38,357 nt of DNA from a virus, in IMG/VR virus record IMGVR_UViG_3300044801_000070, positions 1 through 38,357 of that record. One strand, 5' to 3'. Shown here piece after piece: positions 513-38,357 of this stretch; position 1 is the first letter of the stretch; every line of letters starts with the position of its first letter. The notes beneath the pieces are model-generated. The model was given only the letters and a program-made list of their open reading frames with translations, ran no database searches and was not told the DNA's origin. Made by a program: the position numbers and the translations under genes.

Positions 513-1262
513 TTAACTTAATCCTTTACGTGCTTTTTGCATCCTTGCCCAATTTGCTGCTTTACGTTCTTCAGTTAGTATATTGCTACTTGACATCCCC
601 TCACCGGATTGTGTCATGCCTGTGCTAGAGGAAGATTTCGGTTTGTTGAAATTAGCTTCGGCTCTAGCAGATTCTTTCTTGTGATCGGTGTTAGGAACGA
701 ATTTCTTGACGGCTTTATAAATGTCTGACCATTTATCGTAGCCATCTTGTAGACGCTGCAAAGGACGTGAAACTTCGGGGTAATGATAATCTAAATAATC
801 TAAATTTTCTTGTGCGATTGTCTGGTTGAAGTCTGAAAATGTTTGCTGAAGTTTCATCGGATATTCTTGTTGTTCGCGCTGAATTCTTTGCTGCTCGTAA
901 ACCGCTTCACGCTGGGCAATCGCTGCCTGCACTTTCTTTTCAATACGTTGATCTTCTGTTTCTTCTTCCTGATAGCCTTGTTGCTGATATTGTTGTTGAG
1001 GCTGTTGCTTATTTAGAATAGCTTCCATCGCTGCTTTAAGAGCTTCTGCTTCTGCTGCCTTCTCTGACGCTCTTTTTTCTGCTGCTTCACGTTGCAAGCG
1101 ATCTTGTTTCCTAGCTTCTCTGAAGGCCTTCCAATTCGGATCTTCTTGCGTTTCTGTTGCAACTGCGGGGGCTTGAGTTTGTTGCTGAGTTTGTGCAGGT
1201 GTTTCAACTTTTTCTTGAGACAAATTTGCATCTACTTTAACTTCAGGCGTTGGCATAGTCAT
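513..1262 (-). CDS. Probable capsid scaffolding protein
   Basis: 249 residues, very rich in Gln, Glu, Lys and Ala. It has a low-complexity Gln-rich N-terminus (about 20-40), a long predicted coiled coil (about 45-145) and a short basic C-terminal tail. Acidic/helical composition, absence of Cys and position directly upstream of the capsid gene in the order portal - scaffold - capsid are typical of podovirus and siphovirus scaffolds, which build the procapsid and leave before packaging. The start at 1262 has AAGGAG upstream; ATG at residue 3 is an alternative. Its ribosome site overlaps that of the divergent gene at 1277. The call rests on composition and synteny. Confidence 0.68.
   Translation of the reverse strand: MTMPTPEVKVDANLSQEKVETPAQTQQQTQAPAVATETQEDPNWKAFREARKQDRLQREAAEKRASEKAAEAEALKAAMEAILNKQQPQQQYQQQGYQEEETEDQRIEKKVQAAIAQREAVYEQQRIQREQQEYPMKLQQTFSDFNQTIAQENLDYLDYHYPEVSRPLQRLQDGYDKWSDIYKAVKKFVPNTDHKKESARAEANFNKPKSSSSTGMTQSGEGMSSSNILTEERKAANWARMQKARKGLS
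1215..1243 (+). promoter_or_regulatory. Candidate rightward promoter for the alpha-CTD-like gene
   Basis: TTGAGA (1215-1220), 17-bp spacer, TAACTT (1238-1243). It lies inside the 5' end of the leftward scaffold gene, upstream of ATG 1277. The -35 box matches well and the -10 box weakly, so the call is tentative. Confidence 0.35.
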
Positions 1263-1266
1263 ATTG

Positions 1267-1275
1267 GAGGCTCCT
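1267..1275. promoter_or_regulatory. Shared palindromic ribosome-binding site for two divergent genes
   Basis: The sequence GGAGGCTCC reads GGAG(G/C)CTCC on both strands. On the plus strand GGAGG precedes ATG 1277; on the minus strand GGAGCC, within AAGGAG, precedes ATG 1262. The two start codons are only 14 bases apart, so the two mRNAs would overlap antisense across both ribosome sites. Confidence 0.7.
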
Positions 1276-1276
1276 T

Positions 1277-1564
1277 ATGGATGAAATTGACAATAATAAA
1301 ATTAAAGATATTGAATTAAAGAAAATAAGTGAAGAGCTTTTAAAACGCTTAGATGAATATAGAGAGACTATGAAATATATGGCAGGTGATGCACCAATTG
1401 GCATTATGTGCCTTCCTAAAGTAATTGAGAATGCTTTAATCGCACACGGCTGCTTGCGTGTCTACGATCTTTTCGATTGCGATTTTGTCAAAGTCAAAGG
1501 GCTCGGAGAAACTCGCATCCGGCAATTGACAACCTGCTTGGATCAATTCATCTCTATGTTTTAG
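1277..1564 (+). CDS. Small RNA polymerase alpha-CTD-like (helix-hairpin-helix) protein
   Basis: 95 residues. The N-terminal third is a charged helix (residues 7-35). Residues about 40-92 follow the pattern of the bacterial RNA polymerase alpha C-terminal domain: a Leu-rich first helix (LPKVIENALIAHG), a VYDLF segment matching the alpha-CTD V-G-(D/E)-L region, then VKVKGLGETRIRQL, matching the K-(G/N)-(F/L)-G-x-x-S/R-L-x-x-I helix-hairpin-helix. This domain binds DNA or transcription factors, so a regulatory role is inferred. It is the only rightward gene in this part of the late operon. Its strong GGAGG site is shared with the divergent scaffold gene, and its last 129 bases overlap antisense with the 202-residue gene. 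Bases 1277-1435 hold no leftward gene, which supports it being real. Confidence 0.66.
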   Translation: MDEIDNNKIKDIELKKISEELLKRLDEYRETMKYMAGDAPIGIMCLPKVIENALIAHGCLRVYDLFDCDFVKVKGLGETRIRQLTTCLDQFISMF

Positions 1565-13288: not shown

Positions 13289-14116
13289 CTATTTTTTTCT
13301 GTTTTCTGAAATAGCATAGTTTTTTTCGCATGATAGACGCAAGTAAACTTCGGGTTTGTCAATGGATTTGGTTTTTGTTTTTTTAGAGGATCTTTCATCG
13401 CGTTGAGATTGCTGTTGCTGGCTTATCATGTAATGCACTTGGTCGGAAACATACGAAATCCCGTATTTTTTCATGAGAGATTCTATAGTAGAAAAGGGAA
13501 TACTCCACTGATGTCCCCAATCCGAAATGCGATTTGCAAGATAGCTTTGTATTGCTTGAGCTGCTTCTTTTTTTGGATTTTCGATTTTATCAACGGCGTC
13601 GACGACGATTTGTTCCGTCGACGTAGTCGACGTCGTTAAGTTTGGTTCTTCATAGGGTTCTTCTATATGGTTCTTATATATAGTTTGTCCTTTTTGGTCA
13701 TAGCAGTTTGTCCCTTTGGGACATTCCAGTTTGTCCCTTTTGGACAAACTAGAATCTTTTTTTGAGAGACCAAAAACTTCAAGAATTTCTTTTTCTTTGA
13801 TTCGAAAATATCTTTTTGCTGGAAGTCCAAAACAAACAGATTCGATAAAATTGTGATCCTTTAGAATTTTCAATGCGTGATCTTGTTCTTTTCGCGATAA
13901 GCACGTCCTTTCTTCGCATTTATCCATCGTTAGATAAAACCATCCATCCCCATATTTTGGATGTGAGTCAAGTTCATCGTGTGATGCGTGATATTCGTAG
14001 CGATTGATTAATTCTGATAGCATAATCGCAGCTGTAACGCTTTTGCAATATGTAGCTACAATCCTGCTGTAGATTTGATATGAGCCATGATTTAAAAATG
14101 ATAGGGAAAATTTCAT
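13289..14116 (-). CDS. Phage replication initiator-like protein (winged-helix, O/DnaD type)
   Basis: 275 residues from ATG 14116-14114, seven bases after GGAG (an ATG two codons earlier is too close). Residues about 25-110 form the helix-turn-helix seen in phage replication organisers: SELINRYEYHASH, GWFYLTMDKCEERTCLSRKE, then the wing FGLPAKRYFRI. A linker (120-170) is encoded by iteron DNA, and the C-terminal part (YGISYVSDQVHYMISQQQQ) resembles the helicase-loading end of O-type proteins. It would bind the iterons in its own gene and recruit host helicase, as lambda O does. No phage polymerase or helicase was seen, so host replication proteins are probably used. Confidence 0.72.
   Translation of the reverse strand: MKFSLSFLNHGSYQIYSRIVATYCKSVTAAIMLSELINRYEYHASHDELDSHPKYGDGWFYLTMDKCEERTCLSRKEQDHALKILKDHNFIESVCFGLPAKRYFRIKEKEILEVFGLSKKDSSLSKRDKLECPKGTNCYDQKGQTIYKNHIEEPYEEPNLTTSTTSTEQIVVDAVDKIENPKKEAAQAIQSYLANRISDWGHQWSIPFSTIESLMKKYGISYVSDQVHYMISQQQQSQRDERSSKKTKTKSIDKPEVYLRLSCEKNYAISENRKK
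13682..13750. repeat. Three 23-bp tandem palindromic iterons (candidate replication origin)
   Basis: Three head-to-tail units start AGTTTGTCC at 13682, 13705 and 13728. Each holds an inverted repeat, clearest in TTTGTCC-CTTTT-GGACAAA (13730-13748) and TTTGTCCCTTTGGGACA. An AT-rich stretch (TATATGG...TATATATAG, 13664-13682) lies directly beside them. Tandem palindromic iterons plus an AT-rich tract inside an initiator gene is the layout of the lambda O gene and ori. Confidence 0.75.
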
Positions 14117-14169
14117 ATACATACTCCGTAGGTTAAGTTTTTTTTTTACCTCCGGAACGCTTGCTAAAA

Positions 14170-15419: not shown

Positions 15420-15629
15420 ATGATGGATTGCGATATAGAAATGGATGATCCCGATATGAAGTGCTACTGTTATAGATGCGGCGATTGCTGGAAGTCGAAA
15501 GACCACTGGATGGACGAAATTCGATTTAACCATTTGAGATTAGACTGTGATTTCTGCGAATCTTGCGAAGAAATATTAGAAGAAGCGATTAAAGAACAAA
15601 ATTTAATAGATGAGGCCGATGATGAGTAA
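15420..15629 (+). CDS. Acidic zinc-ribbon protein
   Basis: 69 residues from ATG 15420, eight bases after CGGAGG. Cys pairs: CYCYRCGDC (residues 15-23) and CDFCESC (45-51), then a strongly acidic helix (EEILEEAIKEQN). It is a two-knuckle zinc ribbon with acidic ends, suggesting protein rather than DNA binding. Overlaps the RecT-like gene by eight bases. Function unknown. Confidence 0.65.
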   Translation: MMDCDIEMDDPDMKCYCYRCGDCWKSKDHWMDEIRFNHLRLDCDFCESCEEILEEAIKEQNLIDEADDE

Positions 15630-16488
15630 AGATTTAGTTGTAATGAACGAAGAAGACGATTTTGCGAAATCAATAGCAGAAATCGAACAGACACAAAGAG
15701 CATGTCAAATGCTAATGAAAACCCCTCACTATGCAAAGTTGGGGGAAGCTGGGATTTTTGCGATAGTCCAAAAATCGCGTAGTATCGGTTTAAACGTGCT
15801 GGATGCACTCAATGGTTCTATGTACTTCGTTAATGGCAAAGTCGAACTGGCGGCCAATGCTATGAATTATCTCATACGCTCTAAAGGTCATAGTATAACG
15901 AAAGACGAAAAAAGCAATAAAGAAGTCTGCATTCTACGCGGAAAGCGTTGCGACAATGGCGACACCTGGATTGCATCCTTTTCTATTGCTGAGGCTAAAC
16001 TTGCCGGAATTTATAAAAATGTTTGGGAAAAGTATCCCGAAGATATGCTTTTCGCTAGGGCTTTGACAAGATTGGCTCGGCAATTGTTTCCCGATGTGAT
16101 TAAAGGCTGCTATGTAGAGGGCGAGATCCAGGTATCTAAAGATGTAGAAGTTTTAGAGAGTTCCTATTCTGTAAAGCCAGCAGAAAAGACAGTGAAAAAG
16201 CCAGCAACTAAAGTTATCGAAGCGCCGAAAAGTGAGGAAGTTAAAGAAATACAAATAGAAGTCTTGGATACAATCACAACGGATCAAGCAATTACTCTAT
16301 CAACAGTGTTAAATGAATGCGATCCAGCCTATAAAGAAAAAATTATGAATTTCTTTTATAGCAAATTCAAATGTGAAACGGTTGATGACTTTCCCTCTAA
16401 AATGTTCGATGAAGTTCACGAGAAAGCAAAGAAGAATCGCGAAGAATATCAAGCCGCACTAGCTTTCGATACAGAATCGGAAAAGTAA
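15622..16488 (+). CDS. recT: RecT-like single-strand annealing protein (probable)
   Basis: 288 residues from ATG 15622 (ATG 15619 is equally possible), behind GAGG. Residues about 40-170 match the RecT/Red-beta outline: a helix then AIVQKSRSIGLNVLDALNGSMYFVNGK, the Leu/Asp...Y-x-x-x-(G)K core, a hydrophobic helix (ELAANAMNYLIRSKGHS), then FARALTRLARQLFPDVIKG. The C-terminal third is a Lys-rich linker plus a small helical domain. It would anneal complementary strands exposed by the YqaJ-type exonuclease encoded 1 kb downstream, a standard two-gene phage recombination pair. The assignment leans on that context. Confidence 0.65.
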   Translation: MSKDLVVMNEEDDFAKSIAEIEQTQRACQMLMKTPHYAKLGEAGIFAIVQKSRSIGLNVLDALNGSMYFVNGKVELAANAMNYLIRSKGHSITKDEKSNKEVCILRGKRCDNGDTWIASFSIAEAKLAGIYKNVWEKYPEDMLFARALTRLARQLFPDVIKGCYVEGEIQVSKDVEVLESSYSVKPAEKTVKKPATKVIEAPKSEEVKEIQIEVLDTITTDQAITLSTVLNECDPAYKEKIMNFFYSKFKCETVDDFPSKMFDEVHEKAKKNREEYQAALAFDTESEK

Positions 16489-16489
16489 A

Positions 16490-16548
16490 TGTAAAACCAA
16501 ATTGACATACTTTACATACATGGTTTACACTCACTAAAAAGGAGTGTA
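16490..16548 (+). promoter_or_regulatory. Promoter and SD-masking hairpin of HNH gene 1
   Basis: TTGACA (16502-16507), 18 bases, TACACT (16526-16531) is a promoter-like pair inside an imperfect inverted repeat (TGTAAAACCA 16490-16499 with TGGTTTACA 16521-16529). TACACTC (16526-16532) pairs with GAGTGTA (16542-16548), burying part of the AAGGAG ribosome site (16539-16544). If transcription comes from the upstream operon the hairpin would repress translation; from the local promoter it would not form. Confidence 0.55.
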
Positions 16549-16550
16549 TT

Positions 16551-17027
16551 ATGAAAAAAACATGTACTTGCTGCCATCAAGAAAAAAGATTGATGGATTT
16601 TTATAATAAAAAAAATGGAAAGTTTGGAAAACATGCAATTTGTAAAAATTGCCATAAGGGAAAAAGTGCTAAATGGAAAGAAAACAATCCAGATCGAGTT
16701 AGAATAAATCAAACTCTTTATAAAGAAAGATTAAATTCTCAATATTTAGATTTAGATTCAAAATTCACTTTAAGATTGGATGAAAAAAATAAAGAAGGTT
16801 TTGAGCGATATGCAAATACGAAAATGCGGTTGTTGGCAAATAACATATTAAATTATGGGGTTAGAAAAGGTTATATAGAGAAATCAAATATTTGTTCTTT
16901 ATGCAAAATAGAAATAGATATTGAAGGTCACCATGATGATTATTCAAAACCTTTACAGGTTACTTGGGTTTGTCATGGATGTCACGTTTTAATACATAGA
17001 AACAAAAAATTTACAAAGAAAGAATAA
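16551..17027 (+). CDS. HNH-type endonuclease 1 (probable mobile gene)
   Basis: 158 residues. The N-terminus is a zinc module, CTCCHQEKRLMDFY with CKNCHKGK (about 5-37). The C-terminus is CSLC...GHHDDYSKPLQVTWVCHGCHVLIHR, an HNH-like metal site with paired Cys, as in many phage HNH nucleases. The gene is clearly more AT-rich than its neighbours and has its own leader, both signs of a free-standing homing-type insertion. The N-terminal module and leader match HNH gene 2 at 33672. Ends in TAATG with the next gene. Confidence 0.75.
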   Translation: MKKTCTCCHQEKRLMDFYNKKNGKFGKHAICKNCHKGKSAKWKENNPDRVRINQTLYKERLNSQYLDLDSKFTLRLDEKNKEGFERYANTKMRLLANNILNYGVRKGYIEKSNICSLCKIEIDIEGHHDDYSKPLQVTWVCHGCHVLIHRNKKFTKKE

Positions 17028-17266
17028 TGGAAAAACGAGATCTTATAAAAGGCGATGTCGTCCAACTCAGCGCAGATGGCGATTGGGGACCAAAAATTAT
17101 GGTGGTGACAGAACCTAAATCATGGGGAGCTCAAGGATACGTCCTGGAGTTTCCGGAATCGGCCTGCGCGTTTAAAGGGCGTGCTTACAGACGTATCAAA
17201 TGGGAAGGCATGGAATATGTCGGACGGTTAACGTGGATTGAAGAAGATGAGGAGAATAAGGAATAA
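17027..17266 (+). CDS. Small hypothetical protein (beta-rich)
   Basis: 79 residues. KGDVVQLSADGDWGPKIMVVTEP resembles an SH3-like barrel (G-D-x-V-x-L ... M-x-V) as in small phage YodC-like proteins. It has an acidic C-terminus and is coupled by TAATG on both sides. Function unknown. Confidence 0.6.
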   Translation: MEKRDLIKGDVVQLSADGDWGPKIMVVTEPKSWGAQGYVLEFPESACAFKGRAYRRIKWEGMEYVGRLTWIEEDEENKE

Positions 17267-17442
17267 TGGACTGGATACAAACACTCTCAATCATAGCAAC
17301 AGTGCTAGGCACTGCTTATTACATACACAGAGACATAAAAACGGACATAGACGTTCAAACTTGTAGGCTAGATCAATCTAATACTCGAATCGACCAGCTT
17401 TATAGCATGTTTGTCGACTTGCTCAAAGAAGGACGGAAATAA
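17266..17442 (+). CDS. Single-pass membrane protein with coiled coil
   Basis: 58 residues, TAATG overlaps at both ends. An N-terminal membrane helix (WIQTLSIIATVLGTAYYI) is followed by a polar helix (DVQTCRLDQSNTRIDQLYSMF). It has the same plan and similar start (M-D/E-W-x-Q) as the protein at 25942. It could be a holin- or spanin-like protein or a membrane anchor. It sits between early recombination genes, which argues against a lysis role. Confidence 0.6.
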   Translation: MDWIQTLSIIATVLGTAYYIHRDIKTDIDVQTCRLDQSNTRIDQLYSMFVDLLKEGRK

Positions 17443-18023
17443 TGCCTATACTCAGATTAAATCAAGGCACTCCGGAATGGCTTGAGGCTAGAAAAACGCG
17501 GATCACTAGCACAGATGCGTCCATAATTAATGGAACGAACCCTTTTAAATCGTCGTTTGAGCTCTGGCAACAGAAACTAGATCTTATTCCACCGGATCAT
17601 GTTAACGCGCGCATGGCATACGGAACAGAGCAGGAGCCTATCGCAAGGACTGCATTTGAACAAAAGATCGGAATTGAATTCGCGCCGATGGTCTACGCCA
17701 ATGAATGGCAGATGGCTAGTTTAGATGGAATCAACCTTGACGGCGATTGCATCCTTGAAATTAAATGTGGCGAAAAAGCATATAAGGCCGCGAAGGAAGG
17801 GAAAATCCCTGAATACTATATTACTCAGATGATGCACGCGATGCATGTTGTGGGATGCGAGACTTGCCATTACTGGGCGTTTTTCAAGGGTGAGGGTATA
17901 CATATAAGACTAGAGTCTAACGATGCGTTTATAAAGGCTTTAATCGAGAAAGAGGAGGAATTTTACACGTGGATACAGAAGAAAGAACCGAATCCCGTTT
18001 GGCTGGGGCATGGAGAGAATTGA
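17442..18023 (+). CDS. YqaJ-type (lambda exonuclease family) recombination nuclease
   Basis: 193 residues. Motifs: QGTPEWLEARKTRITSTDAS (helix with Glu/Arg near the N-terminus), GTEQEPIAR, ASLDGI(N)LDGD then CILEIKCG (catalytic D...E-x-K of the PD-(D/E)xK fold), and YYITQMMHAMHVVG (Gln of motif IV). This is the YqaJ/lambda Exo family, a 5'-3' exonuclease that leaves 3' single strands for an annealing protein. Paired with the RecT-like gene upstream. Confidence 0.9.
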   Translation: MPILRLNQGTPEWLEARKTRITSTDASIINGTNPFKSSFELWQQKLDLIPPDHVNARMAYGTEQEPIARTAFEQKIGIEFAPMVYANEWQMASLDGINLDGDCILEIKCGEKAYKAAKEGKIPEYYITQMMHAMHVVGCETCHYWAFFKGEGIHIRLESNDAFIKALIEKEEEFYTWIQKKEPNPVWLGHGEN

Positions 18024-37612: not shown

Positions 37613-38357
37613 TTAGCTTGGGCTAAATGTAGTAACGTTCAGACCCGAGATCCAGTTTTGATTAGTGATCGCGCGAGCAATCGCAAATTTCGCATATAAC
37701 TGACTATTTTGAGCTACAGAAGAAACCACCCATGGCGGACGATAGCCAATTACTGCTGTATAGTTGTTTTGCTCTACTTTTGCGGCAGCTTCTAGGCCGT
37801 ACATAGGGATCGTGTAGATCGTATTCCCTTTTGTAGATACGCCAGGAGTACGAGCCGCTTTGCTAGATACAAAGAAACGGAAACGAGAGATAGAGCAATA
37901 TTCTTCCGGTCTGATCCCTTCTTGCGTTGGGTATGCTGATTTCAGCAATACGCCTTGCACTTTCTGGAGATCGTTTGTCAAATTTGTACTTGCTAGCGCA
38001 ATGAAGGCATCACGAACGCCACCGGTCGAAAATTTTAGCGTGGCTTCCAAATTTGTAAGCATGGAGCGTGCATCATTACCTAAGAGGATCGTTTCGATGT
38101 TATTGACGTCGTTCAAAGAAATATTACTAGGAGAATCGCCGTTTAAGCCCCCAGTGGCGTTTATATAACTAACGCTCGAGCTGAAAAGGTCTCTCATCAA
38201 AAGATCTTCCTTTTCTCTTAACCATTGTCCAAGTAATGCAGTGAATTTAGTTAACGTTTTGCTATTTTCCCACAAAACTACTTGCTCGTTAGTTACAATT
38301 GACTTCGCATATATCTCCATAGTTGCATCAATATCCGAACGGACTGGGACTTCAGAT
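37613..38357 (-). CDS. Major capsid protein, C-terminal part (crosses the genome join)
   Basis: This part continues the frame that starts at 351 and encodes residues 118-322 (and repeats the last 42 codons of the left copy because of the 127-bp overlap). Visible stretches are LTKFTALLGQWLREKEDLLMRDL, a helix of the kind seen in the HK97-fold spine, YTAVIGYRPPWVVSS and the C-terminal SGLNVTTFSPS. It is followed 14 bases later by the next head gene. Confidence 0.82.
   Translation of the reverse strand, partial: SEVPVRSDIDATMEIYAKSIVTNEQVVLWENSKTLTKFTALLGQWLREKEDLLMRDLFSSSVSYINATGGLNGDSPSNISLNDVNNIETILLGNDARSMLTNLEATLKFSTGGVRDAFIALASTNLTNDLQKVQGVLLKSAYPTQEGIRPEEYCSISRFRFFVSSKAARTPGVSTKGNTIYTIPMYGLEAAAKVEQNNYTAVIGYRPPWVVSSVAQNSQLYAKFAIARAITNQNWISGLNVTTFSPS
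38231..38357. repeat. Right copy of the 127-bp terminal direct repeat
   Basis: Identical to bases 1-127; see that entry. Both copies lie inside the capsid gene. Confidence 0.93.

Follow-up and report, generated by a model that had tools for sequence, protein, structure and literature searches.

Known phage factors modify, cut or block the host alpha-CTD, the C-terminal domain of the RNA polymerase alpha subunit (PMC2988021, PMC7552054, PMC4495994). The T4 proteins Alt and ModA act on this domain (PMC2988021), as does Rac of LUZ19 (PMC7552054), and gp67 of phage G1 is cited as doing so in PMC4495994. These proteins identify the alpha-CTD as a worthwhile phage target, but their descriptions are of modifying, cutting or blocking the host domain and not of being alpha-CTD-like themselves. 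Phage-encoded domains of the alpha-CTD type have also been annotated. Bacillus phage vB_BmeM-Goe8 encodes an 'RNA polymerase subunit alpha' (QDP42789.1), and proteins from several uncultured Caudovirales, among them the BFVD entries A0A6J5MNY7 and A0A6J5L490 (about 20% identical to the protein studied here), are annotated as 'RNA polymerase, alpha subunit, C-terminal'. Our search of the literature on phage alpha-CTD mimics and on phage action on the alpha-CTD found no paper on a phage-made alpha-CTD-like protein. Also relevant here are same-register (-0) antisense overlaps, which are a known class in DNA viruses and are longer than the other antisense overlaps surveyed (PMC8903798).

The window analyzed here is a complete-looking IMG/VR virus record of 38,357 nt (IMGVR_UViG_3300044801_000070). 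Its bases 1-126 are repeated at 38232-38357. Because of this 126-nt terminal repeat, the record closes into a circle, and it represents a closed circle of ~38.2 kb or a circularly permuted genome. The head block is encoded leftward and comprises a terminase, a P22-type portal, small genes, a 202-amino acid gene (g202), a putative scaffold gene and a capsid-like gene, which is split by the record ends (1-351, with the rest at the far end). An O-like replication initiator, a RecT-like annealing protein, an endonuclease and a RecE-like exonuclease are encoded at 13289-14122 and 15610-18023, and constitute a recombination-type replication module. No integrase or polymerase was identified among the larger frames searched in the window. 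Phage family searches, which covered most of the larger window proteins, named no RNA polymerase or sigma factor. Thus, the phage probably uses the host polymerase throughout.

A single rightward gene-like frame (1277-1564, + strand, ATG start, 95 aa) occurs among the leftward head and packaging genes, as the original prediction had stated. The gene is present in 105 of the 107 viral loci that carry the portal, g202 and the putative scaffold, and in all 105 it is antisense to g202 and overlaps it (loci were collected by scanning viral contigs with the 95-aa protein, the portal and distant members, and some contigs entered the set more than once). Wherever it is present, the gene lies between g202 and the scaffold, downstream of the portal. 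The family includes 78 distinct protein sequences of about 86-128 aa, with a variable N-terminal part, and relatives on dozens of viral contigs share 34-62% identity with the protein of the window. Base variation at the three codon positions of the half that does not overlap g202 is 1.10/0.73/1.60 bits, an ordinary coding pattern, and the median dN/dS of the non-overlapping part is 0.45 (324 unsaturated pairs). The frame is therefore coding sequence under purifying selection and belongs to the real core genes of this phage clade. A chance open reading frame is ruled out by the conservation, the codon signature and the clade-wide synteny. Also ruled out is an artefact of g202 coding, in which only the leftward frame would be real, given that the non-overlapping half is conserved with the above pattern.

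Two uncharacterized proteins from uncultured Caudovirales (A0A6J5LGC0 and A0A6J5LGT9) belong to the same family, with 56-59% identity over nearly the whole length. No relative of the 95-aa protein was found in annotated phages, and portal matches in annotated phages have ~21-26% identity among the matches listed; cultured relatives of this phage group are very distant. A genome scan recovered only three near relatives (L095, L096 and L097), in metagenome-assembled bins that bear the labels Bacteroidetes, Burkholderiales and Nitrospiraceae. As these three bins carry the labels of three different phyla, some of them are probably wrong.

The gene g202 (1436-2044, - strand) shares 129 nt with the rightward gene, the length originally predicted. 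Its last 42 codons and stop lie opposite residues 54-95 and the stop codon of the 95-aa gene, and the doubly coding segment (1436-1564) specifies the alpha-CTD-like core on the + strand and the C-terminal tail of g202 on the - strand. The register, with codon facing codon, is identical in 59 of 59 genomes, and the overlap is 129 nt long in 36 of them. Within it, entropy by codon position is 1.07/0.39/0.99: the third position, where g202 has its first, is less free to vary, and variation at the second position, common to both frames, narrows. TTA and CTA, leucine codons that would be stops in g202 when read antisense, account for 8 of 379 leucines in the overlap versus 146 of 312 outside. Antisense-stop codons in general (TTA, CTA and TCA) are almost absent after residue 54, those present being at 55-56 with one at 60; at residue 54 itself, where the g202 stop falls in the window, TTA or CTA is found in 40 of 58 sequences. 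Both frames are conserved and both are constrained in the overlap, as in an overlapping gene pair under dual selection. The near absence of antisense-stop codons rules out the case in which only the rightward frame is real.

Two more distant loci (L146 and L147, with portals 36% and 43% identical to the query) encode homologues of g202 and the scaffold and lack the 95-aa gene; in L147, g202 is 157 aa long and ends near the point at which the overlap would start. The AlphaFold model of g202 is confident for most of residues 31-170, with pLDDT of 61 or less from residue 171 on, and a fold search with g202 returned no convincing match. Given the shorter outgroup tail and the very low AlphaFold confidence in the tail, the end of g202 is most simply explained as an extension overprinted across the antisense strand of a folded domain that already existed. 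Alternatively, the outgroup may have lost the 95-aa gene together with the g202 tail. The overlap resembles the -0 class in the pairing of codons in register on opposite strands (PMC8903798), but here it is conserved clade-wide and pairs a predicted folded domain with a tail of low model confidence on the opposite strand.

On its other side, the 95-aa gene is divergent from the putative scaffold gene (513-1262, - strand, 249 aa). The product of the latter is Q/E-rich, and the gene is located between the portal and capsid-like genes and is conserved in relatives; no family search named it, and it is called scaffold by position and composition only. Its N-terminus (1100-1262) includes a 9-residue repeat like KVDTNLxQQ. 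The scaffold start at 1262 and the ATG at 1277 are separated by a 14-nt spacer (1263-1276), as had been noted originally, and both ribosome-binding sites are interlocked within it as GGAG-G-CTCC. The site of the rightward gene, GGAGG (1266-1270, + strand), ends 6 nt before its ATG, and that of the scaffold, AAGGAG (1271-1276, - strand; CTCCTT on the + strand), ends 8 nt before its own. The original prediction described a shared palindromic ribosome site. The two halves do serve the divergent genes, but GGAGGCTCC (1266-1274) is an inverted repeat that forms an imperfect palindrome. A four-base Shine-Dalgarno match precedes the rightward gene in 48 of 59 relatives and the leftward scaffold in 57 of 59, and both sites are recognizable in 47 of 59 genomes versus 0.9% of shuffled spacers. 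Nearly all relatives have 9-16 nt between the two starts, most often 14.

This arrangement may act as a switch. The 95-aa gene would have a rightward promoter of its own within the scaffold coding sequence, and would be silenced, through antisense and collision, when the head genes are transcribed leftward. The 95-aa gene and the head genes would then be favored at different times. Because each transcript covers the ribosome site of the other, expression could be mutually exclusive. A promoter scan recognized no rightward site just upstream of the 95-aa gene start. Scaffold codons 1-20 vary less at their third positions (1.25 vs about 1.3-1.7 elsewhere), which fits a hidden rightward promoter, although codon bias at gene starts could equally cause it. 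In the stretch of four relatives (L014, L018, L035 and L038) that matches the scaffold N-terminus, the DNA motif TCAACTTT is repeated at 27-nt spacing, ~70-100 nt before the rightward gene starts.

Expression of the 95-aa gene could plausibly be coupled to scaffold production through antisense, which would fit the conserved layout, but compact packing explains the layout equally well. The possibility that the interlocked sites and the antisense overlap reflect genome compaction, with no regulatory role, concerns only the switch, and we give it slightly better than even odds. Two normally spaced ribosome sites placed side by side in a 14-nt gap yield GGAG-N-CTCC automatically, and viruses are known to contain long antisense overlaps in the same register (PMC8903798). 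Compaction accounts less readily for a gap and a register that persist clade-wide despite the varying N-terminal length of the protein, or for the lowered variation in the first scaffold codons, though codon bias near gene starts might lower it too.

The AlphaFold model of the 95-aa protein (from a 58-sequence alignment) has a mean pLDDT of 82 and helices at residues 2-36, 41-44, 48-56, 63-66 and 78-94. Thus arranged, a long N-terminal helix is followed by a compact helix-hairpin-helix domain (~39-95) that resembles the alpha-CTD. In a Foldseek search of the PDB, alpha subunits of RNA polymerase or their CTDs, of several bacterial and plastid origins, take all of the first 37 places, and the first non-alpha protein, RAD51, is at rank 38. 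The best E value is 0.03, with probabilities of 0.8-1.0 for most matches; so modest an E value is as expected for ~57 residues. For most isolated CTD entries, the target-normalized TM score is 0.6-0.8 and the rmsd about 1-2 A. These matches support the alpha-CTD fold for the predicted C-terminal half, and bear out at the fold level the helix-hairpin-helix likeness first seen in the sequence.

Sequence profiles only hint at the same relationship. The Thermus alpha-CTD (1doq, E=0.026) ranks first in a profile search of PDB sequences, whose 13 hits include further alpha subunits, and the alignment is ungapped from P40 to the 287 loop. The predicted fold and the ungapped motif order P-(I/V)-x-x-L-x-L...G...(V/I)-x-D-L...G-(L/I)-G are shared with the alpha-CTD family (PF03118). 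Unlike members of that family, the 95-aa protein has no Pfam-level sequence match, and it stands alone, joined to a single long helix and without an alpha-NTD. An hhalign comparison with 27 cellular RpoA CTDs gave a probability of 0.2, which is not significant; only 2 of 58 family members matched PF03118 (RNA_pol_A_CTD), with a best E of 0.074, and the protein of the window record did not match it up to E 10. Searches of Pfam, PHROGs and NCBIfam gave no consistent family. Common descent from the alpha-CTD goes beyond what this non-significant homology supports.

The DNA-reading surface of the alpha-CTD is largely missing from the family. The 265 determinant, made up of R265, N268, C269, G296, K298 and S299 (E. 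coli numbering), was placed on the 95-aa protein by means of the PDB profile alignment and the hhalign alignment with cellular CTDs. The R265 equivalent (position 49) is T, V, A, S, K, P or another residue, with R in 1 of 58 sequences; N268 (position 52) is N in 15 of 58, C269 (position 53) is C in 1, K298 (position 79) is K in 3, and S299 (position 80) is S in 4 and mostly R instead. Only G296 is kept (51/58). The 27 cellular CTDs have both R-x-x-N-C and the K-S pair, and the Goe8 protein, which differs also in being 210 aa long, keeps R265, N268 and C269. The loop that corresponds to the 287 determinant is three residues shorter in the 95-aa protein. R265 is reported to be crucial for UP-element contact (PMC2988021), and the UP-contact residues to be highly conserved in bacteria (PMC4495994). 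With the equivalents of R265, N268, C269 and K298 replaced in most members and the 287 loop shortened, the 95-aa protein is unlikely to read UP elements in the usual way, and canonical activator contact is not expected. Residues that are conserved in the family are instead Y28, D38, R61, Y63, D64, D69 and F91, and basic residues are found at the hairpin (K74 in 51/58, R80 in 49/58 and R82 in 34/58).

We propose, with a probability of about 0.4, that the 95-aa protein is a small host-directed transcription regulator that acts by protein contact. Host transcription is the most plausible target of an alpha-CTD-like core protein in a phage that probably depends on the host polymerase, and a protein lacking the DNA determinant would reach it by protein contact. 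The N-terminal helix would be a docking or dimerizing part, and the alpha-CTD-like domain would replace the host alpha-CTD, or compete with it, at a partner of the polymerase. The proposal includes no reading of UP-element DNA by the protein because the DNA-contact residues are gone. Counted against the regulator are the non-significant sequence homology to the alpha-CTD, the replaced DNA-contact residues, the location of the gene in the head-assembly block and the failure of the promoter scan to recognize a promoter for it.

The helix-hairpin-helix fold is also found in proteins unrelated to transcription. The chief competitor of the regulator explanation is a helix-hairpin-helix accessory that would bind nucleic acid during head assembly, DNA packaging or DNA processing and have no relation to RNA polymerase, so that the match to the alpha-CTD would reflect a shared small fold. 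In every carrier genome the gene keeps its place among head genes, basic residues cluster at the hairpin, and the lack of significant homology to the alpha-CTD is as this explanation would have it. However, the gene is transcribed opposite to all head genes, alpha-CTDs exclusively fill the first 37 PDB fold matches, above other helix-hairpin-helix proteins, and the alignment to the alpha-CTD has no gaps up to the 287 loop. We regard such a head accessory as a possible but tentative explanation.

A different host target, as in counter-defence or a decoy function, could be engaged through Y28, R61, Y63, D64, D69 and F91, which are invariant or nearly so. However, no defence or counter-defence family appeared consistently among the Pfam, PHROGs and NCBIfam matches (searches of general scope), and a core gene in almost all genomes would be unusual for such roles, making this unlikely. 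The functional half of the original prediction, in which a free-standing mimic of the alpha-CTD would redirect the host polymerase by binding UP elements or activators, draws on the fold match and on the existence of alpha-CTD-bearing phage proteins such as that of Goe8. It is unsupported and highly doubtful given the shortened 287 loop and the non-conserved equivalents of R265, N268, C269 and K298, of which cellular CTDs retain all four and the Goe8 protein the first three.

The proposed regulator can be combined with the switch described above: a core protein with the alpha-CTD fold that has lost the DNA determinant would occupy the partners of the alpha-CTD, and an antisense switch at the interlocked sites would make its expression mutually exclusive with that of the head genes. 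We consider this full scheme improbable as a whole. Already known are the annotation of alpha-CTD-type domains in phages, two database members of the 95-aa family, phage action on the alpha-CTD and same-register overlaps; what is new, as far as our searches reach, is that the gene is core across the clade, that its product has lost the DNA determinant, that the core of the fold is doubly coding and that the ribosome sites interlock.

Across the clade, the locus cleanly illustrates how a folded domain and a tail that is probably disordered can share DNA in antisense codon register, which is useful for studies of overprinting. If the proposed role is true, a phage-made alpha-CTD-like effector without DNA-reading residues would join the few known phage routes to the host alpha-CTD. 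As the gene is near-universal in this uncultured phage group, its role bears on how these phages take over their hosts.
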